Positions 2,168-61,012 of a DNA stretch of 64,000 nt are shown one piece after another. Below the pieces are notes generated by a model that saw only the letters and a program-made list of their open reading frames with translations, was not told the DNA's origin and searched no databases. Within the stretch, counting starts at the first letter, position 1, and each line of letters opens with the position of its first letter. The stretch spans positions 94,199,319 to 94,263,318 of the forward strand of contig CP136066.1 in the NCBI GenBank assembly GCA_032622095.1, in the 5' to 3' direction. The stretch comes from Siphonodentalium dalli (Eukaryota; Mollusca; Scaphopoda; Gadilida; Siphonodentaliidae). The translations under genes and the position numbers were made by a program.

Positions 2168-2524
2168 CCCTTTACCCAACAGAAGGGCCCTGTGCCAATG
2201 CATTCTCTTATATATGCGAGTCGACCATAGGTCGCCTCGCATATATAAGAGAATGCATTGGCTTAACACATATTAAAGAAAAAATGGTAAAAAGTGTTAA
2301 AAAAAAGTTTTTTTTAGGCCAATGCATTCTCTTATATATGCGAGGCGACCTATGGTCGACTCGCATATATAAGAGAATGCATTGGCACAGGGCATAACTG
2401 TAACTATCACAATGTGCTCAATGAGCCGGTTCCAATGATACCCATATTTCCATGGTTTTATTGAGACAGACCGAAGATAATTTAGGCTGTTAGGGCGTTT
2501 CTGGGCGTTCTGTTGGGTAAAGGG
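2168..2524. mobile_element. A element (piggyBac-like MITE) with twin hairpins
   Basis: TTAA flanks both sides (2164-2167, 2525-2528). Ends are CCCTTTACCCAACAGAA and TTGGGTAAAGGG. Inside are two mirrored copies of a hairpin based on GCCAATGCATTCTCTTATAT, separated by an A/T-rich spacer. The TTAA duplication and CCCTTT ends are typical of piggyBac-type elements. No transposase is encoded. Confidence 0.85.
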
Positions 2525-2704
2525 TTAACAACTTACAGGCCTTGACATTCTTAGTATAGGAATTAACCACCCTAATCTCTGGGTTATTGAGAATTCTGCC
2601 CTATTCCTGGCCCATGTAATTATATCAGCCACTTCAGACAACGACATCAGATAACGGTTTGGTTTTTCTGTTTTGTATCTGACTGTTTATGCATGACTCA
2701 AATA

Positions 2705-2933
2705 ATATCTTTTCGTTACTAAATGGATTCTCCCAGTCAGTTAAAAAGTGTACATCGGAATGGTCTATTATTGATCTGCAGGGATGTACGGGTAATAATA
2801 GCAGATGACAGATAAATAACAGTACAGAAGGTGTCACATTTATTGAGAGAAATGTTTAGATAATAATTTGAACATTAACTGAACATTTCCTATGGGATAA
2901 CTACTCACCGATGATTCTTTAGTATAAAAAGGG
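2705..2933 (-). mobile_element. E element (TTAA MITE), reverse orientation
   Basis: Right flank is TTAA (2934-2937) after TAGTATAAAAAGGG. The left end is degraded (TTTTCGTTACTAAATGG). The inside holds the E-family block GAACATTTCC and GGATTCTCCCAGTCAG. Confidence 0.7.
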
Positions 2934-3528
2934 TTAAATTTTAACTATGTTGAGGACGATTATTGGTTTTGAACATATGAGCACCACACCCCAGCATAGT
3001 GCTTCAACTTTAAAGCTAAGTATTAAACTTAAAGGCGTTTGCGATGAGTACAGCTGAAAAATCATACATTGTTATGTTAAAACATTATTACCAAGAACAT
3101 GAAAAAATAGAACAAATTGTTCTTATTTTCATTATCAATAGTGACTAGATTCCGTATATTGAAAACAAAATTTGTATTTGTTATCACGCTTTTATGGCAG
3201 TCACTTTCGACGTTATCGCATTATTTTCGACATTTCATTTTCACACTTTCGCGTCAAAAGTTTTTCGACATTATCGACAATTTTTTCCCATATCTGAGAA
3301 TAGCTTTGACATGCCCTTTTAAATATAGACAATATTGATTCTGATCAAATACGGCCGGGGCAGAGCATATTTCATTATCAACTTATTTGCATCAGCATTC
3401 AAGTCAATCTATATTAATATTTTCTTTGAATTAAAAACAAAAGAATAAATTATTTCTGACACTTTGCATAAAGTGTAAAAACTGCAAAGTGTAAAATTTT
3501 AACACATTGAGACGAACATATGTTTTTA

Positions 3529-3797
3529 CAGTAATGCTCTAAATAATCGACACCTTAACCACAGCAGAATTATGGGTAACTTTTCAGGATTTAGTCGGAA
3601 ATCTGGCTTGTTGCCATTCATCGGAAAGCTCTCGGGGTAAATTTTCAGGATTTAGTAGGAAATATGGCTTGTTGCCATTCATCGGAAAGCTCTCGGGGAG
3701 AGCTTTCCGATGAATGGCAACAAGCCATATTTTCGACTAAATCCTGAAAAGTTACCCATAATTCTGCTGTGGTTAAGGATTATTTAGAGCATTACTG
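3529..3797. mobile_element. M element with partial internal duplication
   Basis: TA-flanked, from CAGTAATGCTC to GAGCATTACTG. The left arm is followed by a second partial copy of its inner half (3638-3702, TTTTCAGGATTTAGTAGG...), so the element is about 70 bp longer than usual. Right arm complete. Confidence 0.9.
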
Positions 3798-4234
3798 TAA
3801 TTGGGGGGATATGTTGTTTTCTGATTTCATCCAAATGACTGCAAATAATACCTAAATGGTATTTGTCTCCTAAATATTCTCTACATATGTTGTATATCCT
3901 ATTGTCATTATCATATCACTTCTCAATGGGAGTTGTTGATGGAACCGCACCTCTTGGGGCCATATGTGTTATAAGTGCATGGCGAAATATCAGGTCTTAA
4001 TACAATGCCATTTGTTCCTCATATGAGCTTACCTCAATCCTCTTAGCTTTCTCCCATCTTACCGTGAAAATTGGCTTCAGAAGCCTATGAATGCTCCTCT
4101 TATAAACCTGGCACCAGATAAATAATACACGGACTGCTTATTACATTGAATGCTTCAACATTTGTGATATCGAAACATATAATACTGTACATATAAAAGC
4201 ATTGCAAGTACTCTTGTATAGTCTACCTATGGTA

Positions 4235-4378
4235 CAGTAATGCCCTAAATAATTGACTCCTTAACCACAGTAGAATTATGGGTAACTTTTCAGGATTTAG
4301 TCGGAAATATGGCTTGTTGCCATTCATCGGAAAGCTCTCACTGAGAGATTTCCGATGAATGTCAACAAGCCATATTTC
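4235..4378. mobile_element. M element, right arm truncated
   Basis: Complete left arm from CAGTAATGCCC, then the apex and the first part of the right arm up to CAAGCCATATTTCAT. The remaining right arm is missing. Confidence 0.85.
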
Positions 4379-4464
4379 ATATTGGGAGAAGTATACTTCT
4401 CTCTGTCTATTTATTATCAGTTGTTAAGTTGTTAGCCAGGGGTGTGGCTAGAGGATTATTGGAG

Positions 4465-4510
4465 GGGGGCACAGGGTTTCCGCAAAATTATAGGAAGCTC
4501 CAGTCATGTA
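4465..4510 (+). repeat. right-end fragment of a C element
   Basis: CCGCAAAATTATAGGAAGCT and CAGTCATGTAAGGG lead to TTAA. This matches the C-family right end (see 58120-58379). Confidence 0.55.
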
Positions 4511-4631
4511 AGGGTTAACAAGAGGTGGCATCAGAGATGCTGTGTCTCGTTTTCGGTGGCTTACCGCCGGTGGCTACCGCCAATTGGTGTGCATCAGTAT
4601 CGGTAGACTAATTAATAGGTAAAATCAAAAA

Positions 4632-5480
4632 ATGACTAATTATGGGCCATAACTCCATCAAATTTTATCGGGCCAGGCTGGTTTTCGAACTCGTCCGAAA
4701 TATTCTTGGCAAGTATGTCTATTCCAAATTTTAAACAAATCGGAGGACGTTTGTTGAAGTTATCGTGCTAACGAGCTCAAAATTCACGAAAAATGACTAC
4801 TTAAGGACCATAACTCTATCAAATTTTATCGGACCGGGCCGGTTCTCTAACTCGTCCGAGGTATTCTTGGGAGACACCTATATATCAAATTTTCAATAAA
4901 ATAGGATGATGTTTGTTAAATTATCGCGCTAATGAGCTGAAAATTTGTGAAAAAATGACTAATTAAGGGCCATAACTCTATCAAATTTTATCGGACCAAG
5001 CCGGTTTTCGAAATCGTCCGAGATATTCTTGGGAGACACCTATATATACAAAATTTCAATCAAATCGGATAACGTTTGTTGAAGTTATCGCGATAACGAG
5101 CTGAAAATTCGTGAAAAATGACTAATTAAGGGCCATAACTCTATCAAATTTTATCGGACCAGGCCGGTTTTCGAACTCATCCGAGATATTCTTGGGAGAC
5201 ACCTATATACCAAATTTCAATCAAATCGGATAACGTTTGTTGAAGTTATCGCGCTAACGAGCTGAAAATTCGTGAAAAATGGCAAAGGGCCATAACTCTG
5301 TAATAAATGTGCGGAGGAACCCGATTTTTTGTCTGCAGCTTACGTGCATGGATATGTACTCACACACCAAATTTTGGATAATCCGTCAATAAACGGTTGA
5401 GTTATAAGCAAAACACGTCGCCCATCCGCCCGCCCGCCCACCGTCCCTCATCAAACTATAAGTCGAGTTTTGGAAAAAAA
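4632..5480. repeat. tandem array, unit 161-163 bp, about 4 copies plus tail
   Basis: Units begin near 4632, 4793, 4955 and 5118, with a fifth partial unit near 5279. Each carries GGGCCATAACTCTATCAAAT, then TTTTATCGGACC, CGTCCGAGATATTCTTGG and AAGTTATCGCGCTAACGAGC. Copies 2-4 are closest. The tail (5290-5480) holds a C-rich CCGCCCGCCC stretch and ends in a hairpin AGTCGAGTTTTGG...AAACTCGACT. It could be the 3' part of a larger transposon or a satellite-like expansion. Confidence 0.85.
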
Positions 5481-5828
5481 CTCGACTAATAATCTAGGTT
5501 ATACCAAAATTAATATGCTGCATCGATTAGAGATAAGAGTACGGTCTTCCAGCTGCCCCTGGGTAATATTTAAAAGTGAAATATAGTCCAAAAACTATAC
5601 AAAATTGTCATGAAGATAGACCACATCTAGACTGGCTACACACCCACCATGATCGCAGCCTTACAAACCAGTTGGCTGGGATTGTTCTCCGATGCGAACA
5701 AAACAATCGCGCAGTAATCATCTCCAGAATCTATCTTGGTTCAAAACAACAATTGATTCATTTCAAGCGAGTCAAATCAATTGCTTCAATAGTAACTCCC
5801 ACTGTAGTAATCACTGGGGGGGAGATAG

Positions 5829-6029
5829 CAGTAATGCCTTAAATAATCGACTCCTTAACCACAGCAGAATTATGGGTAATTTTTCAGGATTTAGTCGGAA
5901 ATATGGCTTGCTGCCATTCTCACTGAGAGCTTTCCGATGTATGGCAACAAGCCATATTTTCGACTAAATCCTGAAAAGTTAGCCATAATTCTGCTGTGGT
6001 TAAGGAGTCGATTATTTAGGGCATTACTG
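5829..6029. mobile_element. M element
   Basis: Full foldback from CAGTAATGCCTTAAATAATC to GGGCATTACTG, with TA flanks and arms of about 95 bp. A short deletion affects the left apex. Confidence 0.9.
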
Positions 6030-6239
6030 TACAATATCATAAAACAAAATCCTCTTTTGTTCATAAAACAGGAGAATTTCTGTGAATTTGGAATTTTGAG
6101 GTAAGAAATTGGGAAAAACCTGACTTTTTATTTCCCATATATGGAACGGGACTCATTTATGGCTCTAGCTGTCAAAAGTCCCTGAAATCCCACAGCTATC
6201 AATGTTGAAATAAGCCATCTCACAACCTTAATTCGTCTC

Positions 6240-6335
6240 TGGTGTAGGGACCAATGGCCTTTATTAATTGGCCTTCAGCATGCAAAAGCTGCATGATTTA
6301 TCCATTAGACCAAGCACTTAGGCATAAAAAACAAA
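6240..6335 (-). ncRNA. possible degenerate tRNA-like sequence
   Basis: On the minus strand TTGGTCTAATGGATAAATCA resembles a tRNA D-arm/A-box. It is followed by a hairpin CATGC-AGCTTTT-GCATG at the anticodon-arm position and a weak TGGT...ACCA stem. Position 33 is not T and no good B-box is present, so a functional tRNA is unlikely. Confidence 0.2.
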
Positions 6336-7589
6336 GAATCAGTGATAGCTAGGTGTCTGAATTTTTTCCTTTCGACTCTCCTCTGAGAGGAACATAAAAA
6401 AATATCGGTCAGAAGCTGGAATAAGGATAATTGATTTAATGCATATATTTGTTCAATACCATTTATGTATGATTGTCTCATAACTCAACTTTAAACATAT
6501 ATGGCTCGATCCAGTCTGTAGTAAACTACATACCCACATATACAATAGTGGGTCTGATGACTTTTCATATAGTTTTCATTTCCCAATCAGAACTCACTAT
6601 TAGTAGCACCGAGATTAAGGAGTCCAATCAAAACGATTAACGTAGCGTAATGTGACGTAATTCTGGGGAACACCGCAAGCCTTCCAAGAAATGAAAAATA
6701 TAGGGCGGAATACAATCGACACAGTATCCGTATGAATCTGAGTGTATGTTTACAAAGACTGGGCTCGTTTGAACCCCAAATTATGTTTTCATAATTATCT
6801 CAAAACATACATTCGCGGAAGATTTCCAAACAAATTTATCAATATAGTGCTGAAAATATGTGTTTTGCTTCTTGTATTTTTCAATAAATTTGAGATCGTT
6901 AAGTGTTCTTTCAAATTTTTTAATCATTGGTCACATACAAATTGCACCACATGGGAAGAATGTCTACAGCTGTCTTCACTCTGAAAGTTTATTTTACTAC
7001 ATAATTTTGACAGTATTATATCGTTTTCATGGAAAATATGTTATAGGGAACTGCTTCATTAATTTTCATCAAAACTTTCAGAATTTTGTCTCCTGTACTG
7101 GTATGATCAATTAGCAAGAAAAGCCCAATCAAAATTTACAGTTTCAATCCCCGGGTTTTATAGAGTTCAATTCCATTCAATGGTTCCTTGGAAAACCTTG
7201 GCCTGCTTCGAGTTGCAAATATAATTACATGTAAACAACCACCCAGTATGCACTATATACCCGTACCATACACACTGCTCCCTCAAAGTGCCTCCAATTG
7301 ATTGGTCTTTGTTTGCGGAACATGGTTGTGGGTTTAGTGCAGGAGACACCTGGTTACAGATCACCACATCAATCAAGTCACCTTTACCTGCAGTGAGTTC
7401 TGTATAAAGGCCATATAACAGCACAGAAATCCAACTGTGCAAGTATTCAGCAGCTATTGTGGGAGCTTTTATGAAAGACAGGTAAACATGGCTTCACACT
7501 GTGTGCAATAAATGTTGAATGTATGTTTGTCCTTATGAATAAGGAAAAATTGTTTGGCTCAGTCAGCGCATTGATGGATAAATATGCAA
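6336..7589. other. no gene or clear repeat recognised
   Basis: AT-rich intergenic or intronic sequence with scattered short frames that overlap on both strands. Confidence 0.55.
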
Positions 7590-7832
7590 ATCTTTTTCAG
7601 GACTTCACAAAAGTCGGAATGATTCAAAAATTCTAATGGGTAAACATCACCAACTTCAACTGGGGAACTTAAATTTGATCCTAGGTCTCCCATAAATAGT
7701 TGAGACCTAAGCAGAATGAGGTCACCAGAGGGTGAATTTGGTAGAGCTAGCCTGCCGTGAGGGATAGCGTCACTAATTTCACCCTATGGGGACCTCATTC
7801 TGCAAATGGCAGACACACTATTTGCAGGCTTG
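7590..7832. mobile_element. N element, right part
   Basis: Contains the N right palindrome (AGAATGAGGTCACCAGAGG ... GGGGACCTCATTCTGC) and the terminal CACACTATTTGCAGGCTTG. The left terminus is lost. Confidence 0.75.
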
Positions 7833-8032
7833 ACTGGCCCCCCTTTACATTTATATGTGTGGATTTACAAGAATCTTGTAGGAACTTTGAACAGCACCAA
7901 GAGAGAATGGTAACACTGAGAGAATTAATCAAGAATGAACCTAGCCCAATACACAATACCAACTGAACCACCATTATGCACTATACCATGTGACACATTA
8001 TGTGTGAATTTCCTCATATTTACAACTTTGAA

Positions 8033-8451
8033 CAGGCCTCAAAATATTGTGCCGGACATTTGCATCACTAAATTCACCTCTCTGGGGACCTCATTCTGCT
8101 AAGGCCCCATCTCTCGAAAGTATCTTTATTATCAAATTAACAAGTTTTTTTTAGTTTCTTTCGAAACTTCTTTAGAAATGTTCTTTTTTTAGTTCAGTTT
8201 CGCTATATCCCCAACTTGGCATATGAAACAATGCATAATTAATCGAGGTTTCCAATGGGGCCACATCACCATCTTCACCATCTGGGAACTTAAATGCTAG
8301 TCTAGGTCTCCCATAGGAGATGAGGCAATTCAGAATGAGGTCCCTAGAGGAAGAATTTGGTGATGGTAGCCCACTGTGCAGGGTAGAGTCACTAAATTCA
8401 CCCTCTGGGGACCTCATTCTGCATATGACCAGCACCATATTATGAGGCCTG
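8033..8451. mobile_element. N2 element (hAT-like MITE)
   Basis: Ends are CAGGCCTCAAAATATTGTG and CACCATATTATGAGGCCTG. The flanking octamers ACTTTGAA and ACTTTATA match at 6 of 8 bases. The interior matches N apart from its termini, so this is a subfamily. Confidence 0.7.
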
Positions 8452-8772
8452 ACTTTATACATTGCTGATCACCAAGAGAGAACTCGAGGATGACCCTAGC
8501 CCTACTCTAAGGACATCCAATATTGATTTAAACCAAGTGTCCTTCATTATGTATATTATATAGTGTCCACTCTCAGTCCACGACGGTCTGTCAGTCCTTT
8601 AGTAGATTCTTACCATGCAGTGCACAGAAGATATACCAATGGAACTGTCTATAAAAAGGCTTCATTTCATTGTGATGAAAAAAGCAATTATGATCATGAT
8701 ATCACAAGGAAGACCCGCAAGAAAGGTCTCATGAGTGTAGATGACTCTTTCAATGTCACAATGCCTAGAGTA

Positions 8773-8975
8773 AACGCCCTAATTAATCGACTCCCTAACC
8801 ACAGCAGAATTATGGGTAACTTTTCAGGATTTAGTCGGAAATATGGCTTGTTGCCATTCATCGGAAAGCTCTCAGTGAGAGCTTTCCGATGAATGGCAAC
8901 AAGCCATATTTCCGACTAAATCCTGAAAAGTTACCCATAATTCTGCTGTGGTTACGATTACTTAGGGCATTACTG
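8773..8975. mobile_element. M element
   Basis: Foldback with both arms almost complete. The left terminus has drifted (ACGCCCTAATTAATCGACTC); the right ends GGGCATTACTG|TA. Confidence 0.85.
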
Positions 8976-9883: not shown

Positions 9884-10381
9884 TTAAATGTTCTGACAGT
9901 ATCAAATCTTGAGTTAAGAACCAGATTTCAAAATTCTAACCCAGGAGAAGGGATCGAGGGTGTGCATAGAGTTAGTAGACATTTCATCTGGTCATATGTC
10001 AAGGGAGTGGTACAAAAACTGATGCCGTGCCTCCCACAAACAAAGGCCCTTGATCCATATTGATGTACCAAGAAACTGAAGTGAAAATAAGACAACATAT
10101 AGGCGTGGCATGGCTCAATACACACACATATGAGAATTCCCAGAGGTCTCAGCTATCTGGAATGCCAGAGAAATCAATTGACTCCAGACAGTAAAGTACC
10201 ATACTCAAGGTCTCGCTGACCGGGTACGCATGTCCTCAACAACGATCTCAGCATGAGAGGCATGACTTCCCTGGCAACAGACTTATTCCTGAAACCCAGA
10301 GGGGAGATCTGTTATGTAATGTGACAGAAGCATGCTAACAGGAACCCTGGGGATCCTCATAATCGTACACATCATCCTACG

Positions 10382-10539
10382 TGGCGGGCTTGCAAATATA
10401 AGAGAATATTCATTGGCCTTACAATATTTACTTTGACCGTGTATAAAGCCAGTGCAATGGGAGACTCGCATATATTAGAGAATGCACTAGAACAGGATCT
10501 TTAACTGAATGCACAAGCGCAGCTCCCGTCAAGGAAGGT
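10382..10539. mobile_element. degraded C element, right part
   Basis: Contains GCAAATATAAGAGAATATTC and CGCATATATTAGAGAATGCA, then CAGCTCCCGTCAAGGAAGG before TTTAA. Left end missing. Confidence 0.55.
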
Positions 10540-10601
10540 TTAAGGTGCCTGCGGGCCTATGGAGAAATGAACATCTTAATGAAACTGTACAAATTTTCTT
10601 C

Positions 10602-11842: not shown

Positions 11843-11973
11843 TCTTGAAAACTCCCTCCTGCAATTTTAGTTGCCTCATAAATGTGCTCAAGCAGTTATG
11901 AACTATTGATGATGATACTATTATAAAAGGGTTGTTTGAAAGTGGAAGCATCTGATCTTCATATCAACTTTAA

Positions 11974-12365
11974 CCCTTTACCCAACAGAAGGGCCCTGTG
12001 CCAATGCATTCTCTTATATATGCGAGTCGACCATAGGTCGCCTCGCATATATAAGAGAATGCATTGGCTTAACACATTAAAAATTATAAAATTGTTAAAG
12101 AATGTCAAAAAAATGGTAAAAAGTGTTAAAAAAAGATTTTTTTTAGGCCAATGCATTCTCTTATATATGCGAGGCGACCTATGGTCGACTCGCATATATA
12201 AGAGAATGCATTGGCACAGGGCATAACTGTAACTATCACAATGTGGTCAAGGAGCCGGTTCCAATGATATCCATATTTGTATGGTTCTATTGAGACAGAC
12301 CGAAGATATTTTAGGCTGTTGAAGCTTTATTTGGCCGGTTTTGGCCGGTTTGTTGGGTAAAGGGG
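11974..12365. mobile_element. A element with twin hairpins
   Basis: TTAA at 11970-11973 and 12366-12369. Ends CCCTTTACCCAACAG and GGTAAAGG. Two mirrored hairpins (GCCAATGCATTCTCTTATAT type) flank an A/T-rich spacer. Confidence 0.85.
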
Positions 12366-12369
12366 TTAA

Positions 12370-16612: not shown

Positions 16613-17095
16613 AGGAGCTGAACCCCAACAAACAAAACCAGGCTTCCAACATAACTGGTTCAACTTCAATTTACAGTAAATGATAAATCACCAAGATTTA
16701 TTTGCCATAGCTCTTAGACAGTCAACAGCGGTTGATCAAATCCTATATAAAAAAATCAATAACAAATTTCTAGGCAATATTTGGTCCTATACCAAATATT
16801 GTGGTTTGATCAGCTGGTTTGATTCCATATATTGGTCAAGGAATCATGACAATGGTATACCAATAATCTGCAAGCACTTCACTTCATAAGTTCCCACTGG
16901 ACCCCACAACCTGGTTCAGTGAATAAACACGACATCGCAATCGAACTGTGTATTCTCGATGTTGACCATAGGGCTTTGTGGGATGTCCGGTCATTCAAGC
17001 TATATTAGACGGTGGCAAGAATAATATCTCATTACCATATAAAAACTGGGGCAATTTGGCACAAATAATATTTCTTAGGTTCATGCACTTTTAAG

Positions 17096-17180
17096 ATGGC
17101 ATGGGAGACTGGTATATATAAGAGAATGCATTGGCAGAGGGTTTTTCACAAAATTTCAGAAAGCCGCAGTCATGAATGGG
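17096..17180. mobile_element. C element, right end
   Basis: TATATAAGAGAATGCATTGGC, TTCACAAAATTTCAGAAAGC and CAGTCATGAATGGG lead to TTAA (17181-17184). Confidence 0.65.
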
Positions 17181-17517
17181 TTAAGGGATTCAAAGGAAGG
17201 TATACCAAACTCGTATCAGAAACAGTTTTATTTATTTATGGCTGGTCCACCTATATGAGTTGTCAGGCAGACTATTTTTGCATTGAGTCTTTTCAATCCA
17301 GAGATAAAAGTACTATAAAATTATGAGTGAGCATTCAATTCGGTATACCTCTGGGCACCTATATGCCTTTGGAGACAAAAATAATCAAATGTTCTGAGTG
17401 ATCCTTCATGGTGCTTATAGTGCTAACATTTTAATCCCATTATTTTAATTTAATTTCCAACCATTATGATTTATCGCTGAGAGTTTCTGTAACTAAACAT
17501 AGAGCAATATATAACTA

Positions 17518-17693: not shown

Positions 17694-18325
17694 TAGAACA
17701 GAAAGATAAACGTCATTTTCCCCTCCTTTGAATGCAGTCATGACAATGAACCTCCATAAAAACTTCATTCTGATCTGATAAGCCATGCGTGGATGGACAA
17801 AAATATTTCCATATAAATAAAGAAGGATAACTCTAGAGCAGAAAATGTGAACGTCGATCATTTGCTCCTCTTTTGAAAGCAGTCATATTCCCCCAAATTC
17901 AAGCCAGAAAAGGATGTGCCGAAAATATGGAATTGTGTCCAAATTAGAGCAGATAAAAACATAACTTCTTCATGCATATGAGCATATGAAACTGCAATAT
18001 TTCTTATTTCAGCAAGAAAAAAAATCATTTTTGAAGCAGGAATTGAGGCCCCCAAATTAAGGTAAAGAGGTTGTTTGTTTTGATGTCAAATTTCAAAATT
18101 TTCTCACCATAAGCCAAACCATGTAGAGCCTATGTTACTTTGTGTCTGCAGATAGCCGTGGTATGCACAATTTAGGGTAATCGAAAGGCCTATGGTTAGC
18201 ATAATCAAGGATGCCATGCAAATTTCACAGCCAGTAAAGTACATGCCACCAGCACAAATTGTACAAAAGTCAGTATGACATGTACTACTATGGCATACCA
18301 GTAAGTTTTAAATCCACCTATTTAA

Positions 18326-18569
18326 CCCTTTGAGTGCCAGGTCCGATTTTTGTATCAACCCATATACCCTGTGCCAATGCATTCTCTTATATATGCGAGT
18401 CGACCATAGGTCGCCTCGCATATATAAGAGAATGCATTGGCCTAACAATTTTTTTTTTTTTTTTTTTTTTTACAATTTTTTACAATTTTAATAATTCATT
18501 CTTATATTCTTAAACAGACTTATTGTGTAGGTTTAGGGCCGATAATATCGGCCCCTGGCACTCAAAGGG
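18326..18569. mobile_element. B element (TTAA MITE) carrying the shared hairpin
   Basis: TTAA at 18322-18325 and 18570-18573. Ends CCCTTTGAGTGCCAGG and CCTGGCACTCAAAGGG. Inside is one copy of the GCCAATGCATTCTCTTATAT hairpin, then a poly-T run and GGCCGATAATATCGGCC. Confidence 0.85.
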
Positions 18570-18833
18570 TTAATGGGCATGTTAATAATAATCCCCATCC
18601 AGATGATACACACATAATGGGAATTTTATTCATTTTGGCACCAGCTTTGTCCTGTAATACGGTTTGTTTTCAATTGTTGTACTTCAGGTCTACCCTGGAG
18701 AAGTAGGAGATAATTTAATTTAATGTCAGGGACCTGGTATGACATTTTAATGATTCTGTTTCCCTGAGGACTTAAATCATTCAGGTCTTTACTGTCCAAT
18801 ATATTGCTATATCCAATATAGTGGGGACAGATA

Positions 18834-19022
18834 CAGTAATGCCCTAAATAATCAACTTCTTTATAACCACTGCAGAATTATGGGTAACTTTTCAGGATTT
18901 AGTCTAGAGCTCTCACTGAGAGCTTTCCGATGAATGGCAACAAGCCATATTTCCGACTAAATCCTGAAAAGTTACCCATAATTCTGCTGTGGTTAAGAAG
19001 TTGATTATTTAGGGCATTACTG
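18834..19022. mobile_element. M element with arm-specific variants
   Basis: Left CAGTAATGCCCTAAATAATC then AACTTCTT; right AAGAAGTTGATTATTTAGGG. The unusual AACTTC/GAAGTT pair is present in both arms. The inner left arm is shortened. Confidence 0.88.
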
Positions 19023-19253
19023 TATATGCCACATTGTGCTGGCAGTTGTGGAAAATGCTTTTAAGTATATGAGTCTTGGGCTGAGTGCTATAGTGTTCCA
19101 TGTCGTGTTCTAGTTTTTTTGTGGGAAACCTCGGATTTGAAAATCTGACTACCCGGTTTTCACATAAATGTTCCTTATTTTTGTTGTATGTTGTTTTTAT
19201 TTGATCGGTGGTATTGAAAAACAAATCAGTTTGAATTTTCTTGCCTTATATAA

Positions 19254-19593
19254 CCCTTTCATGATTGGAGCTCCTGAAATTTTGCGAAAACCCCTGTGCC
19301 AATGCATTCTCTTATATATGCAAGTCTCCCATAGGAATATATAAGAGAATACATTGGCCTAACAATATTTACCTTGACCTTGTAATTAAGCCAGTGCATT
19401 ATTTTTTATATGCAAGGCTCCCTATGCCTGACTCGTATATAAGAGAATACATTGGCCTAACAATATTTACCTTGACCTTGTAAGCCAGTGCATTCACTTC
19501 TATATGGTCTCCCATATATAATAGAATTCACTGCACTGGCACAGGTTCTTTTTTTTACAATGCTGCGCCAGTGCAGCTCCCATCATGAAAGGG
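19254..19593. mobile_element. C element
   Basis: Begins CCCTTTCATGATTGGAGCTC (left TTAA drifted to ATAA) and ends GCAGCTCCCATCATGAAAGGG|TTAA. Several diverged copies of the GCCAATGCATTCTCTTATAT segment lie inside. Confidence 0.8.
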
Positions 19594-19953
19594 TTAATAT
19601 TTGAAACGTGATTGGAGATAGAACGATTTTCTGAAGATTTAAGTTTTTCCAGTCAATGGTAGAATGGTTTTTGAATTTTTCAATCATATAAAAGTACAAA
19701 GATCCAACATCATGCCATTTTCTGTGTTATTTTAATAATAATTCCCATAGAAATAAGATTTTTTCATCTAGGAATAAGAAAGCACCATTTCCAACCAGTC
19801 ACTTCACTGGCACTCTGCCAATTTCGTAATTTTGGTTTCCATTGCTTATTCATTGAAGGCTGGAGATACATGTACAACATGATAGCACTGAAATTTATTT
19901 GATCAGATGGTACAAAATAAATAAATTCTTTGGTCCACAGTGGAGATATAGAG

Positions 19954-22338: not shown

Positions 22339-23131
22339 AGAGGTTAAGGATAATCAATTTGATATATGTGGACTAGATTGTATTTTGGAGTAAAACAAAC
22401 ACAAGAGGCAGTAAATAATAAGAAAATAAAAATGACTCTGAATTTTAAGATTCCACAAAAGATGAGAGAGTGTAGTAAGAATCCAGTGTATGATACAGTT
22501 GGAATCCGACATAAAGTTCTAAAAGAGCGGGGTGGTGATATCCAAGATGTGAAATACCCCGTCTGTTAATCTCTGGCTAAGTAAAACAAAAAATACATGC
22601 AGATGAATGAATAAATTAGTTCGGACAAAAACATAAGGGAATATATACAATCATAAAATAAAACTTTACATATCCACGACCAGCTGTGAGTTAGTATATG
22701 TGACAGAAGCGATGTCATATTGATCGACCTTTTAGTTTACCGTTATACAACTTCTTCAAATTGAACAGGATCTGTTTTGTCGGGCAAAAAAAAAATAAGG
22801 TCGTAGGAAGTACATCTTGAGACATTCATACTCAACGAGATTCAATACCCCCACACTCAAAGTAGGCATACTTCTTCAGAATTTATCACTTATATATGGA
22901 AACAAGTCTACGTCTGGACGATCACACGAGGAACAGTTAATCAATCAGATCACTGATGAACTAATTTTGTAAATTGCCAACATAAACTCTGCCAGGAAGG
23001 TTGCTGTCAAATGAGAGAAACTGATGATCGGAGCGGAAACAACGAATATTAGTAAAGTCTGTCAAGTATGATGAGTCTTTCTGGAAGGGTCATGCATCTC
23101 TAAGCATCGTTTATTATTATTCATGGCATTT

Positions 23132-23144
23132 GGGGGGGGGGGGG
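23132..23144 (+). repeat. poly-G tract, 13 bases
   Basis: Uninterrupted G run. Similar runs lie at 41574-41585, 51123-51140, 58792-58809 and, as C, at 62460-62474. Confidence 0.9.
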
Positions 23145-23192
23145 AGCCTTTCTATACTTCTATGGATTCTCCCACTCAGTTATATGTATGTA

Positions 23193-23417
23193 CAGTTATG
23201 CCCTTAGTAATCGACTCCTTAACTACAGTAGGATTATGGGTAACTTTTCAGGATTTATTTATATCGGAAATATGGCTTGTTGCCATTCATCGGAAAGCTC
23301 TTGTTGTCTCAGTGAGCTTTCCGATGAATGGCAACAAGCCATATTTCCGACTAAATCCTGAAAAGTTACCCATAATTCTGCTGTGGTTAAGGAGTCGATT
23401 AATTAGGGCATTACTGT
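23193..23417. mobile_element. M element
   Basis: From CAGTTATGCCCTTAGTAATC to GGGCATTACTG|TA, both arms present. The left arm has a short insertion (TATTTATAT) and the apex has TTGTTGTCTC. Confidence 0.9.
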
Positions 23418-23505
23418 ATGTACATGGAGGGATGATGGAGGGATGTAAAGGATATACATGCGTGCACATATAGTTTTAACACGGGCCCACTTCTTCATTT
23501 CAGCG

Positions 23506-23864: not shown

Positions 23865-23868
23865 TTAA

Positions 23869-24075
23869 CCCTTTCAGTGCCAAGTCCGATTTTTGTATCA
23901 ACCCGTATTTCATTGATCATTTTTCAAATTTATTGATTATAATAATGTGATACATTGATGGAAAGAGCTCTTAGAGCTCTTTCCATCAATGTATCACATT
24001 ATTATAATCAATAAATTTGAAAAATGATCAATGAAATACGGGTTGATACAAAAATCGGACTTGGCACTGAAATCG
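23869..24075. mobile_element. B-type palindrome, about 100-bp near-perfect arms
   Basis: TTAA (23865-23868) then CCCTTTCAGTGCCAAGTCCG; right end CGGACTTGGCACTGAAATCG then TTAA (24076-24079). The apex is GAAAGAGCTCTTAGAGCTCTTTC. It has B-type termini but lacks the shared hairpin of the other B copies. Confidence 0.9.
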
Positions 24076-24227
24076 TTAAAGACATATTACCGGTATGTAT
24101 ATAATATCATTGAATAAAACAAAACAGTTAGTATCCAAACACTATCCCCATTGGAAGGATGTACTAGTAGCAATGAACCAAGATTGTTGAAAGTTCCAAC
24201 ATCATCGGCTATAACATTTCAGAGAAC

Positions 24228-27681: not shown

Positions 27682-27935
27682 CAAGCCTTGAAATAGGGTG
27701 TCTGTCATTTGCAGAATGAGGTCCCCAGAGGGTGAATTTAGTGATGCTACCCCGCATAGCGGGCTAGCATCACCAAATTCACCCTCTGGGAACCTCATTC
27801 TGCTGAGGTGTAAGCCGAATGAGGTCCCCAGAGGGTGAACATGGTGATGCTAGCCCGCTATGTGGGGTAGCATCACTAAATTCACCCTCTGGGGACCTCA
27901 TTCTGCAAATGACAGACACGCTATTTCAAGGCTTG
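27682..27935. mobile_element. short N element with perfect 8-bp target duplication
   Basis: CAAGCCTTGAAATAGGGTGT to CACGCTATTTCAAGGCTTG, flanked by TGCCCGTC on both sides (27674-27681, 27936-27943). Two palindromes are joined with the long middle removed. Confidence 0.92.
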
Positions 27936-29644: not shown

Positions 29645-29648
29645 TTAA

Positions 29649-29894
29649 CCCTTTGAGTGCCAGGGGCCGATATTATCGGCCCTAAACCTACACAATAAGT
29701 CTGTTAAAGAATATAATAAAATATATTAAAATTGTAAAAAATTGTAAAAAAAAAAACAAAACAAAAAACAAATTGTTAGGCCAATGCATTCTCTTATATA
29801 TGCGAGGCGACCTATGGTCGACTCGCATATATAAGAGAATGCATTGGCACAGGGTATATGGGTTGATACAAAAATCGACCTGGCACTCAAAGGG
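29649..29894. mobile_element. B element carrying the shared hairpin
   Basis: TTAA at 29645-29648 and 29895-29898. Ends CCCTTTGAGTGCCAGG and CTGGCACTCAAAGGG. Relative to 18326-18569 it is in the opposite orientation. Confidence 0.87.
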
Positions 29895-30004
29895 TTAAAG
29901 CAACAACAGGGGCTGAAAATGAGCCCCAGTCCCAATGGGAAATAATAAGGTTTTCCCCTTTTTATGACCACGAAAATTCCCAATTCACAGAAAGTGAAGT
30001 AAAC

Positions 30005-30382: not shown

Positions 30383-30796
30383 TGCTCGGCTGCCCTCAGT
30401 CATTCTGATGGAGATAAATGATAAGCCAAGAATATCATTTATTTAGACAATAGGAGATATCTACGGGCTGGACTATCATTTAGAAATTGGATACTGATCC
30501 TAGACACTACTCCAATATGCCCAAACGATGATTAATCCACTTTCCAATTTTCCAACGCACCAGAGTCTGTGTTTTTGGATAGCCCTGGAAATCTGTGATC
30601 GTGTTGAGTTGACGATTAAATTACAGTAGACTGGTCAGTTCAATCAGGGGTCGAAAGCCTTGGTAATTAAATTACGCAGAATGAGTCGGAACCAAATACC
30701 ATCCAAACAGCGGCAAATTAATTGAAATGAAAATCATGAAGATGGAGAACAAATCACAGCTACAAGCTGGTAAATGCGCCGCACAAAACAAAGCTA

Positions 30797-30998
30797 CAGT
30801 AATGCTCTAAATAATCGACTCCTTAACCACAGCAGAATTATGGGTAACTTTTCAGAAATATGGCTTGTTGCAATTCATCGGAAAGCTCTCGCTGAGAGCT
30901 TTCTGATGAATGGCAACAAGCCATATTTCCGACTAAATTCTGAAAAGTTACCCATAATTCTGCTGTGGTTAAGGAGTCGATTATTTAGAGCATTACTG
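30797..30998. mobile_element. M element
   Basis: CAGTAATGCTCTAAATAATC to GATTATTTAGAGCATTACTG. Both ends carry the GCTC/GAGC variant. A small deletion lies in the left arm (TTTTCAGAAATATGG). Confidence 0.92.
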
Positions 30999-31193
30999 TA
31001 TCTTGAATGCCATCAATGCAGCGCCATCTCCAGGGCTTTTTCTTTAATGACATATTATGGACTTGTCGGGTGCGTGAAATTGATAAGTTGGTACTCAGGT
31101 GCTATGCCAACCTGGGGAATGGAACATTCTACTAACATCGCCAAAAATTTCAAAGAAATCGACCATACCACACCATAGAAACCATCGTCTTAA

Positions 31194-31693: not shown

Positions 31694-31893
31694 GAAAGCC
31701 ATGCTGGTGTAGCATTAAAGATCCTGTGCCAGTGCATTCTCTTATATATGTGAGTCTTCCATGGGGAGACTTGCATATATAAGATAATGCACTGGCTTAC
31801 AAGGTCAAAGTAAATATTGTTTGACCAATGTATTCTCTTATAAATGCGAGGCTCCCTGTGGGTTTTCGCAAAACTTCTGGAAGCTCCGGTAGA
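31694..31893. mobile_element. C element part
   Basis: TGTAGCATTAAAGATCCTGT, CAGTGCATTCTCTTATATAT, the mirrored TATATAAGATAATGCACTGG and TTCGCAAAACTTCTGGAAGC. The termini are lost. Confidence 0.65.
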
Positions 31894-36275: not shown

Positions 36276-36279
36276 TTAA

Positions 36280-36644
36280 CCCTTTACCCAACAGAACGGC
36301 CCTGTGCCAATGCATTCTCTTATATATGCATAGGTCGCCTCGCATATATAAGAGAATGCATTGGCTTAACACATTAAAAATTATAAAATTGTTAAAGAAT
36401 GTAAGAAAAAATGGTAAAAAAAGATTTTTTTTAGGCCAATGCACATTCTCTTATATATGCGAGGCGACCTATGGTCGACTCGCATATATAAGAGAATGCA
36501 TTGGCACAGGGCATAACTGTAACTATCACAATGTGGTCAAGGAGCCGGTTCCAATGATATCCATATTTGTATGGTTCTATTGAGACAGACCGAAGATATT
36601 TTAGGCTGTTGAAGCTTTATTTGGCCGGTTTGTTGGGTAAAGGG
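36280..36644. mobile_element. A element with twin hairpins
   Basis: TTAA at 36276-36279 and 36645-36648. Ends CCCTTTACCCAACAG and TTGGGTAAAGGG. The left hairpin lost about 10 bp at its loop. Confidence 0.87.
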
Positions 36645-37142
36645 TTAAGAAATACAATGCTGTTTTAGCTGATATTTGAAGAAATACATTCTATGAAACA
36701 TTAAAGGGCATTTTGTGCCCCCCTTGGATTTGGGTTTGGGAGGCATGTTCTCCCATTTTCCCGTGGCACCCCTGATTTTCCGTCTGGATTTTCATTCCAA
36801 AATTTCAATAAATTAGCATCACATTATGGGGCTTCAAGAATATATGGCTTGAATTTCCTGAAAGTTCCCTATAACACCAAATATATTGTAAAGTAGAAGA
36901 ATTGATTTTTCTCGCACTTAACATAAAAGGTTTCATTTTGAATGGGTGGGGTCTGAAATTTGCTCTGTATTTGTCTTTTGAAATATAAGAACAACATTTG
37001 TCATGAATGAAAATAGAGCCGCATCCCTAAGAGTACACACTATCAAGGCAATATGTCTCCAGAAGGCAATTTTCTCCTGCTCTCTAAGTGCGGCCCTCAA
37101 CACTCTATCAAGCGAAATTAAAAGCAAATATTATTTCTTCAT

Positions 37143-47735: not shown

Positions 47736-48195
47736 CAAGCCTGCAAATAGTGTGTATCATTTGCAGAAAAAGGTCCCCAGAGGGTGATTTAGTAATGCCA
47801 CCCTGCACAGTGGGCTAGCATCACCAAATTCACCCTCTGGGGACCTCACCAAATTCACCCTCTGAGGACCTCATTCAGCTTAGGCCTTATCTTCTGGGTG
47901 AATATTGTCTCAAATCAACATTGTCTTTAGTTACTTTTTCCCTTTTGGCAATTTCTATATCCCCTAATTTGCAGAAGATAAAAGCGTAATCGAGGTAACT
48001 AATGGGTGAACATCACCAACATCAACTGGGTAACTTCAGCCTGACCCTAGGTCTCCCATAGCAGTTGAGGCCTAAGCAGAATGAGGTTCCAAGAGGGTGA
48101 ATATGGTGATGCTAACCCACTATGGGGGATAGCGTCACTAAATTCATCCTCTGTGGACCTCATTCTGCAAATGACAGATACTCTTTCCAGACTTG
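47736..48195. mobile_element. N element, full length
   Basis: CAAGCCTGCAAATAGTGTGT to ACTCTTTCCAGACTTG. Flanking CACTTTTC and AACCTTTC match at 6 of 8. The left palindrome has a short internal duplication (CTCACCAAATTCACCCTCTG). Confidence 0.8.
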
Positions 48196-54766: not shown

Positions 54767-54815
54767 GTTTGTTTTAACAGCACCCCTCCCCACATCATTA
54801 CAGGGAAGTGACCTA

Positions 54816-56043: not shown

Positions 56044-56430
56044 TTAAGATACAGTTGGAAAATTCAAATATTGGGGGGGGGGGAGGTTGTGCAAATGGTA
56101 TTCCTCGGAAATTTCAGTATGATTCAGAGGGGGAGGGGATGCAGTTGGAAATTTTGGGTATATCCTGTCTACCCGGCAGGCAGAGATTAACGACTTGGCC
56201 GGCGGAGATTATAGTCCATATCAAAACACCTGCGGTCCAGTGTTGTCACAGTCCATAACTGTTGGTGCATGGTGAATAACGTTTAATAGCGTGAGCCACA
56301 TTCAGTTTATTTATTTTACACGTTTTATTATTTGTTTGTAAAGATGTATTATGCATTATTATCAGTGTTTTAAGTAGAGTTCACTACTGAATATATATAC
56401 TGTTAGATTCCCTGGTCTGACATAAAAACG

Positions 56431-57590
56431 ATGGCAAGCACACAAGTGAACGTAAATTATATTCCAAATACTAGAGGTGGAAAGTATCTGGTATATGATG
56501 ACTACAAATTCTCCGTTAAATCAAGGAGAATGATCGAATTCATTGGCGATGTTGTAAGAAAGACTGCCGTGCAACCACCAACACTGAGAACGATATGGTG
56601 ATATCCAACAGCGGCAACCATAACCACGAACCTGATTTCAACCAAGTAGCAGCAGATTCCTTGATTGCAGACCTCAAAAAGCTTGTTAAGAGAAGTAACA
56701 AGCTAGTAACAACGCTATACCAGGAAGAAATAGGAAGTATGTACTGAGTAAATTTAATTTCGCATTCGCATTAATCTGGCAACGCTCTTTATATTAGTAT
56801 TCAGAAATAAAACTAAGCGAGTAATAACTAAAGTAAAACTGGTGTAATGTTATATTATATATATTATAATTATTATTAAAGAATAGAGAATACTAAGCAA
56901 GTAATAACTCTATTACAGCGTCAAAACAGCATTGTATCATGCCAGAGCCGAAAACCAGCCAAAGTTACCAATTCATCGTTCAGGAGTCGACCTTCCTGAT
57001 GTATACAAAACAACAGCCAACAACCATAACTTCCTACTAGCCGATGACGGATAGACTGAAAAGATTCTGATATTCGCGACCAGAGAAAATCTAGAAAATT
57101 TAGCTGTTGCCGGAACGATCTTCTGTGATGGAACGTTTGAGAAAAGCCCAACGATCTTCTTTCAACTGTACACGATACACGCATTCGTCGCCGGAAAGAT
57201 GTGCCCTTTGGTGTATGGCTTACTTCCCAACAAGACCCAACACACATACCAACGTTTCTTCAATCTGGTGAAAGAAAGGGCAGCAGAACTCGACATCACC
57301 ATCAGCCCAAGTGGATTTTTCACAGATTATGAGACAGCTGCCCAAAACTGCAGTTGGTGTTATCTTGCTCACACCCGAACATCTTCAGGTTGATATATTT
57401 CCTGAAGAAAGAGCAAGCTTACCAGGAAGCAACCATCATCCAATTGAGAGCGGGTGGAAGCCTTGGCCCACGGAAGATGCGATATCGCAAAGTTGACAAT
57501 TCCATCAGACATTTCAAGAGAGTTTTCGGCGCAGGCGAAATAGATATTCTCGAATACATGGATTCAGTATCAAACAGTATCAAACATTAA
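56431..57590 (+). pseudogene. broken FLYWCH zinc-finger / MULE (Mutator-like) transposase
   Basis: The first part (56431-56736) encodes a FLYWCH zinc finger: RGGKYLVYDDYKF, then after a frameshift near 56528 HWRCCKKDC and GNHNHEPD, with the Cys and His ligands intact. The second part (56919-57393) matches the MULE transposase domain: FLLADDG, ILIFATRENL, the catalytic FCDGTF (Asp at 57127), QLYTIHAF, PLVYGLLPNKT and the second catalytic FTDYE (Asp at 57325). A third part (57375-57590, another frame) matches the family C terminus: HPNIFRLIYFLKKEQ, KMRYRKVD and ILEYMDSVSNSIK. Defects: the frameshift, an in-frame TAG at 57052-57054, and loss of roughly 100 or more residues between AQN (57345) and HPNIF, which removes the GC-FH region and the third acidic catalytic residue. 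A possible intron (donor GTATGT 56737, acceptor TTACAG 56918) is off by one base in phase. A polyadenylation-type AATAAA lies at 57648. It cannot be an active transposase. Confidence 0.85.
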
Positions 57591-57679
57591 TGTGCTATAA
57601 TTCATGTTATATTGATAGTATTTGTTATATATATATCTTGAGTATTTAATAAATTTGTTGAAATATATCACATGTGCAT

Positions 57680-58080
57680 TTCTTCGTTCATAAAGCAACT
57701 TCCGGTGTCCGTTCAGGGCAAGTTCAGGGCGAATATCGGCCTTTCGTTAGACACCAAAATGAGCCCTCTACGCGCTGTATTCCTCGAGTTTTGAATTTTC
57801 CAAAAACCCCAATTATCCTCATCGTCCGGCCGCTCATCGCCGTCGAAATTAGCCATCGCCACCAATTCCCAGTAACAATTATGATAAAAACTATAGTCGG
57901 CAGCTCTGTGATGTTGAGGATTATCACACCTGCCCCAACACCTACCCGAAACAATAGCCGCCGGGTGAACAGGACGACCCCGAAATTTTAAGGTGGACAT
58001 CCCCAACAGAGACCCACTAGCCACGTCACAGATCCCAGCAAAGGAAGAATAAACAATTCCTGTGTATAGTTTTAGAATCA
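57680..58080. other. CpG-rich patch open in three frames, unassigned
   Basis: Richer in GC and CpG than the neighbourhood (TCATCGTCCGGCCGCTCATC). Frames are open at 57674-57991 on the plus strand and 57713-58081 and 57724-57954 on the minus strand. No motif is recognised. It may be part of the MULE-related element just upstream or an old exon. Confidence 0.3.
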
Positions 58081-58119
58081 AATGGGAGCATCCATTCAGA
58101 AATTGAAATCATGGGTTAA

Positions 58120-58379
58120 CCCTTTCATGAAGGGAGCTGCGCTGGTGCAGCATTAAAGATCATGTGCCAGTGCATTCTCTTATATATGCGAGTCTCCCAG
58201 AGACTCACAAATATAAGAGAATGCACTGGCATACAAGGTCATGGTAAATATTGTTAGGCCAATGTATTCTCTTATATATACAACGCACCTTATGGAGACT
58301 CGAATATATAAAAGAATACATTGGCATGGGGTTTTCGCAACATTTCAGGAAGCTCCAGTCGTGAAAGAGTTAAAAATAA
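58120..58379. mobile_element. C element, complete
   Basis: TTAA at 58116-58119 and 58380-58383. Ends CCCTTTCATGAAGGGAGCTG and AGCTCCAGTCGTGAAAGAG. Two hairpins of the CAGTGCATTCTCTTATATAT / CAATGTATTCTCTTATATAT type. Confidence 0.85.
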
Positions 58380-58524
58380 GAAACCCCATCACATCCTGTC
58401 ACCTACTGCCTGCAAGAATTTATGAGTACTATAAACCTCATGGATATCACCCTAATTATCTGAGGTGCTGTCAGTGCAAAAAAGATAGGAGAGGTCTAAC
58501 AAATCCCTGGTGTGCAATCATATA

Positions 58525-58706
58525 CAGTAATGCCCTAAATAATCGACTCCTTAACCACAGCAGAATTATGGGTAATTTTTTAGGATTTAGTCGGAATTAC
58601 GGCATTTTGCCATTCATCGGAAAGCTCTCAGTATTTCCGACTAAATCCTGAAAAGTTACCCATAATTCTGCTGTGGTTAAGGAGTTGATTATTTAGGGCA
58701 TTACTG
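58525..58706. mobile_element. M element
   Basis: CAGTAATGCCCTAAATAATC to GGGCATTACTG|TA. Right inner arm deleted after AAAGCTCTCAGTATTTCC. Confidence 0.9.
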
Positions 58707-58791
58707 TACATCATCGGGTGCAAGGGGGTACTATCCTCAGAAGGACATTTTTTCCCAATGAAAATTACAGGCATCAGTTGAGGGCAAGTGT

Positions 58792-58809
58792 GGGGGGGGG
58801 GGGGGGGGG
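58792..58809 (+). repeat. poly-G tract, 18 bases
   Basis: Uninterrupted G run within GGGCAAGTGTGG context. Confidence 0.9.
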
Positions 58810-59528
58810 TTATGCCCCTGCACGACCTACTTCATCCATCCCTTCCCACTGCCTGAAAGAATTTACCAGAGATAAAAACACATGAATTTCATCAGGCCAA
58901 TTAACCAAGGGGGCTGTCAGTGCAGAGGAGTTAGGGCAAATCTCATGTCTGTAATTAGAGACAGAGGAGAGCCCCTATTCCCCAATATCTCCGCTAGAAC
59001 ACTAAGTCCATTGATTCCGGGGTATTATCCAAATTTTATCACATTCTGCTCTTATTAATTATCATTCCCTTCTCCAGACACATTCTCCGCGTTTTATTGA
59101 ATTACAATACATTATATTGTAGCAGAGATATGCGATATGAAAATAATTTGACGTGATTTCAGTCTGAATTCAGATCGAGAGATTTTTATTTTGTAATTTT
59201 TCCTACATTGCCAATCATTGCGGATAATTTTTTTCTATGTTTATTGTATTATTGGCATAGTAGAAATATAACCTTATATTTGCCCATTCCCAGCCAAATT
59301 ACTTTTCTGGGGTCGTTTCCTGCTAGAGATTGATGGGCCGGCAACTGATTTCTATTCAAAAGGCTATCAGACAGTGTAATCACATAACCTTAAGGATCTC
59401 ATGATTGGGTGGCGAGCTCACATTACACATCACATCACGGCAAGTATCACTTTTCTTAAATAAAGATCCAAGATCAAGCAGTTCAGGTGATTTCCACAAA
59501 GAGATGCGCATCAATGAATAGATATATG
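58810..59528. other. no feature recognised
   Basis: AT-rich sequence without inverted repeats or frames. Confidence 0.5.
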
Positions 59529-59906
59529 CAAGCCTGGATATAGTGTGCCTGACATTTGCAGAATGATGTCACCAAATTCACCAGTCTGGGAACAGCATTC
59601 TGCTTTGGCCTCAACTGCTATGAGAGACCTATAGGATCAGATTGAAGTTCCCCAGATGAAGTCAGTAATGTTCACCCATCAGTAACCTCGATTGTGCATT
59701 TTATTGTCTGCAAATTAGGGAATATAGAATCCTAACAGAAGGGAAAAAGTAACTAAAACAATACTTCACAGAAGATGAGGCCTAAGCAGAATGAGGTCCC
59801 TAGAGGGTGAATTTGGTAATCTCGCCCACTGTGCGGGGTAGCATCATTAAGTTCACCCTCTGGGGACCTCATTCTGCAAATGTCAGACACACTATATCCA
59901 GGTTTG
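59529..59906. mobile_element. N element with 8-bp target duplication
   Basis: CAAGCCTGGATATAGTGTGC to CACTATATCCAGGTTTG. Flanks GATATATG (59521-59528) and GATACATG (59907-59914), one mismatch. The left palindrome is shortened. Confidence 0.85.
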
Positions 59907-59983
59907 GATACATGTACGTTAAAGATCCCTACCATGGAGAAATCACGGAATCGCAAAATTTATGGACAAATTGGGTCGATCTG

Positions 59984-60192
59984 CAGTAATGCTCTAAATA
60001 ATCCTTAACCACAGCAGAATTATGGGTAATTTTTCAGGATTTAGTCGGAAATATGGCTTGTTGCCCTTTCATCGGAAAGCTCTCAGTAAGAGCGTTCCGA
60101 TGAATGGCAACAAGCCATATTTCCAACTAGATACTGAAAAATTACCCATAATTCTGCTGTGGTTAAGGAGTCGATTATTTAGAGCATTACTG
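59984..60192. mobile_element. M element
   Basis: CAGTAATGCTCTAAATAATC to GATTATTTAGAGCATTACTG. The GCTC/GAGC variant is matched in both arms. Confidence 0.9.
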
Positions 60193-60696
60193 TACTTGAT
60201 CCCGGCTTGTAATAGTCAGGATAATGAGGCCAAGCCATACCAAGGAGTGTGTACATGTATCACCTTCAAGCTCCCAGGACCCTATTGTTGAACTGGTTAT
60301 CCCAATTTATCAGAAAAGAAAACTGATGAGCTCAGCAGATCATATAAAACCTACAGTGACTGATATAAGCTGCTCAAATTAAGACCCTGATAAGGATTAT
60401 AACCCACTTGATGATTAGAGCTAGAAACCAGGCCTGATGAAGTCTGAGATTACAGTTTTACACAGTGATTAGAAGTTCAGTGATTATCACACCATGGGCT
60501 GATGAGCTGGGAAGGAAAATGAAATCTTCAACAGGAATGGGAGACCTGCTGAGTTATTAGAGCCAAGCAGCTGCTCTGGCCTGACTCAATCAGTGTTGCT
60601 GGTGGGATGACAGATTTACAACATCCTTATATACCCCAGACTGGTCATGTTCTACAGATATAGTGCAGAGTGATAAGTAATAAAATAATAGCATGG
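60193..60696. other. no feature recognised
   Basis: Unique-looking sequence. Confidence 0.5.
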
Positions 60697-60700
60697 TTAA

Positions 60701-60793
60701 CCCTTTCAGTGCCAAGTCCGATTTTTGTATCAATTTGAAAAATGATCAAGGAAGTATGGGTTGATTCAAAAATTGGACTTGGCACTGAAAGGG
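60701..60793. mobile_element. short B-type element
   Basis: TTAA at 60697-60700 and 60794-60797. CCCTTTCAGTGCCAAGTCCG and GGACTTGGCACTGAAAGGG. Only 93 bp. Confidence 0.87.
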
Positions 60794-60797
60794 TTAA

Positions 60798-61012
60798 CCC
60801 TTCCATGACTGGACCTTCCTGAAATTTTGTGATCACCCTGTGCCATACATAGTGAGCCTGCCCTCGCATATAAGAGAATACATTGGCCTAAAAATAGTTA
60901 CCTTGACTTTGTAAGCCAGAGAATTATCATACATATGCGCGGCTCCATATGGGAGAATGCACTGGCACAGGATCTTTAATGCTGCACCAGCGTAGCTCTC
61001 GTTATGAAATGG
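60798..61012. mobile_element. C element sharing a TTAA with its neighbour
   Basis: CCCTTCCATGACTGGACCTT to GTAGCTCTCGTTATGAAATGG|TTAA (61013). The shared hairpin sequences are degraded (CGCATATAAGAGAATACATT). Confidence 0.78.

Follow-up and report, generated by a model that had tools for sequence, protein, structure and literature searches.

The window analysed here, a stretch of 64,000 nucleotides from the scaphopod mollusc Siphonodentalium dalli (CP136066.1, positions 94,199,319 to 94,263,318), is part of contig C6 of a genome of 2.23 Gb in 9 contigs. It holds short non-coding elements of three families with TTAA ends, which we call A, B and C; their termini differ and their interiors carry a common hairpin-bearing module, which we also found in a family D with unrelated ends. 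A sequence-only reading of the window had placed one hairpin arm twice in each A copy and also in B and C, with arm and loop nearly identical between A and B. Both statements were borne out: searching for the 20-base arm CAATGCATTCTCTTATATAT with at most 3 mismatches gave 30 matches in the window versus 0 in 100 shuffles, and GCGAGTCGACCATAGGTCGC occurs there seven times, every one exact and each within an A or B element. The sharing itself goes further than had been described, extending to the CCCTGTG outside the hairpin, to the spacer and often to a second hairpin inside, and the notion of one hairpin common to all three families holds for A and B, whereas C hairpins differ, partly by paired changes.

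The module runs from its CCCTGTG end through a 69-base hairpin and an A/T-rich spacer with repeats like TTCTTACATTCTTTAACAATTTTATAATTT to, usually, a mirrored second hairpin. With 32 pairs and a single mismatch near the loop, the hairpin is predicted to fold as single-stranded DNA at -36 kcal/mol, with z of -16 and -14.5 for two A/B hairpins. In A, in D and at L066, the one locus read through of a C variant described below (C′), the two hairpins are reverse complements of each other; B has one hairpin only. Since its hairpins mirror each other, the A element can, on structural modelling, also fold into one long stem. A search of the window against Rfam at the gathering threshold gave 0 matches, on which ground a known structured RNA was rejected as an identity for the hairpin, and one exon-like frame had no Pfam match.

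Genome-wide, the exact arm occurs 315,613 times, split between the two strands as 157,847 and 157,766; there are 119,192 copies of the 25-base A/B hairpin core and 120,097 of the exact module end, searched as a 35-mer. Among 20 spaced 10-kb stretches, 9 contained the arm with up to 4 mismatches and 6 the exact arm. Of the first 100 exact module ends in the list for contig C1, junction patterns placed 77 in A, B or D; 17 of the 23 outside these patterns were read individually, at nine loci (L060–L068) and at L034, L035, L030, L043 and L048. Among the loci so read were C (L060, L064), C′ (L061, L066), B (L063), A (L065) and D (L067 and L034, with two ends each, and L068), together with stand-alone modules (L035, with two ends, and L062, which repeats the stand-alone locus L043). 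On C1, tandem arrays at ~727,800–786,000 and 820,000–921,000 contain ~14.56-kb units bearing A ends and ~11.18-kb units bearing a B end together with two hairpins spaced much as in A.

Two kinds of locus entered the comparisons. Loci L009–L028 and the window were treated as chosen without regard to the hairpin, the window itself having been supplied on account of it. By contrast, L001–L008, L029–L048 and L060–L073 came from lists of matches close to the beginning of C1. Some lie in tandem arrays, which lengthen those lists, and at most of these loci the choice inflates hairpin identity, many of the 63 hairpin copies analysed below having been selected by exact match. The overlapping loci L002/L003/L005/L008 were excluded, and the near-duplicates L004/L007, L033/L036, L038/L039 and L030/L048 were retained in the pairing and family-distance analyses. 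The unbiased subset comprises 23 hairpins (A 14, B 3, D 2, C′ 1 and unassigned 3).

One interior under unlike ends

In BLAST comparisons of one representative per family, the six best rows per pair show matches among A, B, C and D that stop at or a few bases from CCCTGTG. From this point inward, A, B, D and C′ have 80–158 bp in common, with 98.8% identity over 81 bp between A and B and 85% over 158 bp between B and C′. With the module removed from single representatives, A, B and C have only TTAACCCTTT in common, and D has at most 9 bases in common with the others; the outer parts of A, B and D have at most 10 bases in common, and C and C′ have outer ends in common as well. The majority hairpin is identical over all 69 bases in A (18 copies), B (11), D (19) and unassigned copies (11), and 35 of the 63 copies of this new type are exact. 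Hairpins of A, B and D are not sorted by family: the between-minus-within distance is negative, and 976 of 1000 shuffles equalled or exceeded the observed value when all copies were used, as did 814 of 1000 with the thin unbiased subset (n = 23).

D has GTGACCCGCCATATCAAATCCAGTCGTAAGTCGGGATTTTTTTTA ends. Of its 7 two-ended copies, among which L033 and L036 represent one duplicated locus, 5 lie between identical 4-bp words (ATAT, AAAT or ATTT), as does L051; the flanks of L029 and L067 are not identical. D was therefore rejected as a TTAA element, its flank duplications being 4-bp and AT-rich instead of TTAA. A and B copies read whole have TTAA at both ends, and the exceptions to TTAA ends were L037 (TTGACCC), the truncated B copies L038 and L039, and decayed C and C′ ends, for example TATAACCC at 19250 and TTTTACCC in L061. 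The centre of D holds a second palindromic unit (GAGCCCC...GAGCAGACGACAC...GTGTGGGGCTCCC), a diverged relative of which stands alone at L067:600–690 with TTAACCC-like ends, and from its sequence D looks like nested palindromes. A D variant at L069–L072 (C1: 4.50–4.82 Mb) retains the outer hairpin arm and enters a GC-rich interior (CCGCCGGCGG) near the loop, which is another join inside the hairpin.

The C hairpin, GAGTC[TC]CCATAGG[GA]GCCTC, differs from the new type, GAGTC[GA]CCATAGG[TC]GCCTC, by a paired change near the loop. C is the older family, because two C copies are 71–79% alike, as against 0.4–2.7% from consensus, by segment, for A copies. At the C′ loci L061 and L066, C ends occur together with a hairpin of the new type and the spacer of the module, and these loci link C to the other families. 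Relative to the A/B/D form, three left hairpins of C′ carry 1, 2 and 2 changes, with one change common to two of these hairpins, and the second L066 hairpin carries 5.

Linkage of the module to outer ends

The A left end ACCCAACAGAASGG occurs 44,535 times genome-wide (69 for a reversed control), and 39,832 of these (89%) run exactly into CCCTGTGCC. Exact B left junctions number 12,197. For D, the end AGTCGGGATTTTTT occurs 18,195 times (control 218) versus 15,270 D junctions, the two patterns being not fully nested. Among the 37 A left ends listed as far as C1:5.99 Mb, all but one show an exact junction or exact core, the 37th (L073) being mutated; among the 18 D ends as far as 4.82 Mb, 12 show an exact junction and the other 6 (L069–L072) are mutated. 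Where inspected, A and D ends without an exact junction are thus mutated junctions, and all of the ends checked, 37 of A and 18 of D, carry the module.

The sequence-only reading had suggested looking for A and B elements that lack the hairpin. Neither the 37 A ends checked nor one closed-up pattern yielded a module-less A, and a hairpin-less A family was rejected as the parent on these two grounds. Six closed-up D candidates were found, of which three were read: L051 is D without the module, and L049 and L050 are unrelated repeats. The copies at 23869 and 60701, earlier described as B-type and lacking the hairpin, do lack it, but they belong to a separate palindromic TTAA family, P, with ~44 bp of the B left end, and are therefore not simply hairpin-less B elements.

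Recombination in the hairpin arms and a proposed origin

At L018:8865–9940, a tandem duplication of 520 bases with 98.8% identity connects a D end with a C hairpin. The two ends of the duplication have in common a 36-base tract, which forms the right arms of the D hairpin (8865–8900) and of the C hairpin (9905–9940) with one difference, and the middle hairpin is C-type on its left and D-type on its right. The crossover lies inside the D and C hairpin arms and is direct evidence of such arms acting as crossover tracts between families. The same locus holds, at 6430–8600, a ~2.1-kb tandem-unit insert (GGCGCGGGCTACAGGTCGTA...ATCTTGGATTTTAC) with flanks TTAGCTCAACTTACTTTTGTAAG and AAGTTGAGCTA, between the two hairpins of a D-like element.

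Recombination between miniature inverted-repeat transposable elements (MITEs), or capture of a hairpin, had been one of the options raised from the sequence alone. It gains support from the identical majority hairpin of A, B and D under outer parts with at most 10 shared bases, and also from the C′ link and the one crossover inside hairpin arms. The account that we favour, with moderate confidence, is that an interior derived from C acquired new ends by recombination on a few occasions and then hitchhiked on end-specific transposases. The module would have originated as the interior of the old TTAA family C, with the shared hairpin as its end part. At a C′ stage, the two different C hairpins would have been replaced by one near-perfect version, mirrored on both sides, and new outer ends would then have been attached to the C′ interior, probably on few occasions, to yield A and B, with a TTAA target, and D, with a 4-bp AT-rich target. 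The joining may have taken place by recombination or repair between copies, for which the long identical hairpin arms would be natural crossover tracts. Each combination would subsequently have been amplified by a transposase recognising its outer ends, of piggyBac type for the TTAA families, and the module may thereby have hitchhiked to ~120,000 exact ends. We infer hairpin crossovers as the founders of A, B and D, and likewise their number and the acting transposases.

Several observations weigh against this account. The crossover was seen at one locus, where the flanks were duplicated and no family was founded. The order from C through C′ to the rest is based on how far C has diverged and on two clear C′ loci, whose hairpins are 1–5 sites off the A/B/D form. 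Among the 8 piggyBac loci read, none had the ends of A, B or C. Finally, the CCCTGTG limit is constant across families, and a mobile unit with fixed ends would explain this no less well than recombination does.

Alternative explanations

If all four families simply descended from a single element with diverging ends, the TTAACCCTTT common to A, B and C would be accounted for, but A, B and D have the same hairpin under outer parts that are unalignable, and the target of D differs; we regard this explanation as highly improbable. The hairpin might also have been retained and shared through function, as a transposase-binding or replication structure selected in all families. Pairing was kept between subfamilies, as in the paired change near the loop between C and the new type (TC/GA to GA/TC) and in the 5 two-sided paired changes, beside 58 one-sided and 3 two-sided unpaired ones, among 10 C hairpins of mixed subtypes. 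Predicted folding is strong, as the z values given above indicate, and a transposase-binding role is possible by analogy, because palindromic sites near piggyBac and piggyBat ends are described, in an excerpt of PMC11707139, as binding transposase C-terminal domains. Against this stand the 63 new-type hairpins, in which 45 of 1953 pairs changed on one side, 1 on both sides unpaired and 0 on both sides paired, so that copies lose their pairing through one arm at a time and single copies are neither repaired nor selected for pairing. The same counts led us to reject arm-to-arm correction in single copies, and, at the level of the single copy, they give no support to the earlier suggestion that the hairpin is under selection. 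Among 8 A copies from the unbiased loci, variation affects 9 of 1028 cells in the hairpins and 29 of 1396 in the outer parts (Fisher p 0.02), a small difference to which one copy contributes much of the excess; B has one hairpin, and P has none yet has TTAA ends. Shared function is in our judgement unlikely to account for the pattern.

Alternatively, the module may itself be a mobile element with hairpin-bearing inverted ends (CCCTGTGCC...GGCACAGGG) that inserted into the ancestors of A, B, C and D, the composites then spreading by their outer ends. This would fit the constancy of the outer CCCTGTG limit in all contexts read, the TA found outside it in B, D and several stand-alone copies, and the existence of stand-alone copies as such (L010 and L035, both of them with two ends, L047, L030/L048 and L043/L062), as well as the P elements, which carry the B left end without the module, and L051, a D without it. 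However, A and C junctions were read without TA, and the few stand-alone copies show TA at most as a flank duplication, with a TTTTTTA/TAAAAAA that is itself an inverted repeat. TTAA immediately outside CCCTGTG is rare, with 315 places (24-mer) versus the 120,097 exact module ends (35-mer), by which the module was rejected as a TTAA inserter. Moreover, every A and D end checked bears the module, and the one closed-up pattern found no empty A. The earlier proposal that an independent palindromic element had inserted into each family is weakened by this linkage, by the negative result with the closed-up pattern, by TTAA not being favoured and by the stand-alone modules, which have no clear target duplication. 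We give insertion of a mobile module some credence, while considering it doubtful, and lean instead towards the recombinational gain of new ends by a C-derived interior.

Elements in the window

The elements of the families discussed above are collected in Table 1. Beside them, a palindromic repeat (GGGTAACTTTTCAGGATTTAGT...CCATTCATCGGAAAGCTCTC) lies at 3574–3698, 8527–8892, 18870–19000, 23075–23473, 30774–31178 and 58217–58651 and yields false open frames, and a tandem array of period 161 with 4.2 copies occupies 4628–5299. A repeat with GAATGAGGTCCCCAGAGGGTGAA ends is found at 27714–27906 and 47821–47873, with further copies in L010 and L017.

Table 1. Module-bearing and related elements in the window (window coordinates)
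Feature	Position	Strand
A element, TTAA to TTAA, two mirrored hairpins	2164..2528	+
A hairpin 1, 69 bases	2194..2262	+
A hairpin 2, reverse complement of hairpin 1	2318..2386	-
A element	11970..12369	+
A element, hairpin 1 minus 9 bases of its inner part	36276..36648	+
B element, single hairpin at 18373-18441	18322..18573	+
B element, single hairpin at 29780-29848	29645..29898	-
C element, two diverged hairpins	58116..58373	+
C element, three hairpin-like units, 98-base internal duplication	19250..19597	+
C element, decayed, abuts P at one TTAA	60794..61016	+
C fragment, decayed hairpins, approximate limits	31722..31870	+
C fragment, approximate limits	10380..10543	-
C fragment, one arm, approximate limits	17090..17184	-
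P element, palindromic TTAA, ~44 bp in common with B left end, without hairpin module	23865..24079	+
P element, shorter, without hairpin module	60697..60797	+

Discussion

A, B and C behave like piggyBac-type miniature elements. With these they have in common TTAA ends, CCC...GGG tips, short length and the absence of coding sequence, and piggyBac transposase genes are present in the genome: the domain PF13843 gave 128 matches (best E 2.2e-94), some of them two pieces of one locus, with 0 of 14 control genomes matched. Unlike such elements, the families described here have a large interior in common with families bearing other ends, and no matching transposase copy was found among the 8 piggyBac loci read of these 128 matches, of which 5 had TTAACCCCCG-type ends, 3 had no recognisable end and none had the arm or module end.

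Exchange within transposons has precedents. In Galileo, a P-superfamily transposon of Drosophila, long inverted repeats exchange sequence and give chimeras with the ends of one subfamily and the centre of another, as reported in the excerpted part of PMC3573991; the likeness lies in chimeric copies arising by exchange between inverted repeats, but Galileo exchange, as that excerpt presents it, takes place within one transposon family, whereas the module described here is present both in TTAA families and in D, whose target differs, with ~120,000 exact ends. In the foldback element Tetris, according to an excerpt of PMC4079207, repeats inside the inverted ends seed tandem arrays and satellite, and Tetris has ends in common with DAIBAM. 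The tandem seeding resembles the 520-base duplication at L018, while one interior under different ends is a feature of the present elements that does not appear for Tetris in the excerpted text. A narrow-term search of the open-access literature returned no title describing an interior common to elements whose ends belong to different superfamilies; the elements as such belong to a known kind.

Miniature elements are usually classed by their ends, and their interiors are regarded as passengers. In the families described here it is the interior that forms the enduring lineage and the ends that vary, which suggests that small non-coding elements can swap ends and interiors. We tentatively raise the possibility that hairpin-ended interiors act as docking parts, whose arm recombination lets an interior change transposase, cross superfamilies and outlive each of them. 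If the pattern is general, families defined by their ends would give a false picture of descent, and an interior whose transposase was silenced or lost could persist by adopting another. The ~120,000 exact module ends in this genome allow the idea of the interior as a lineage to be tested statistically.

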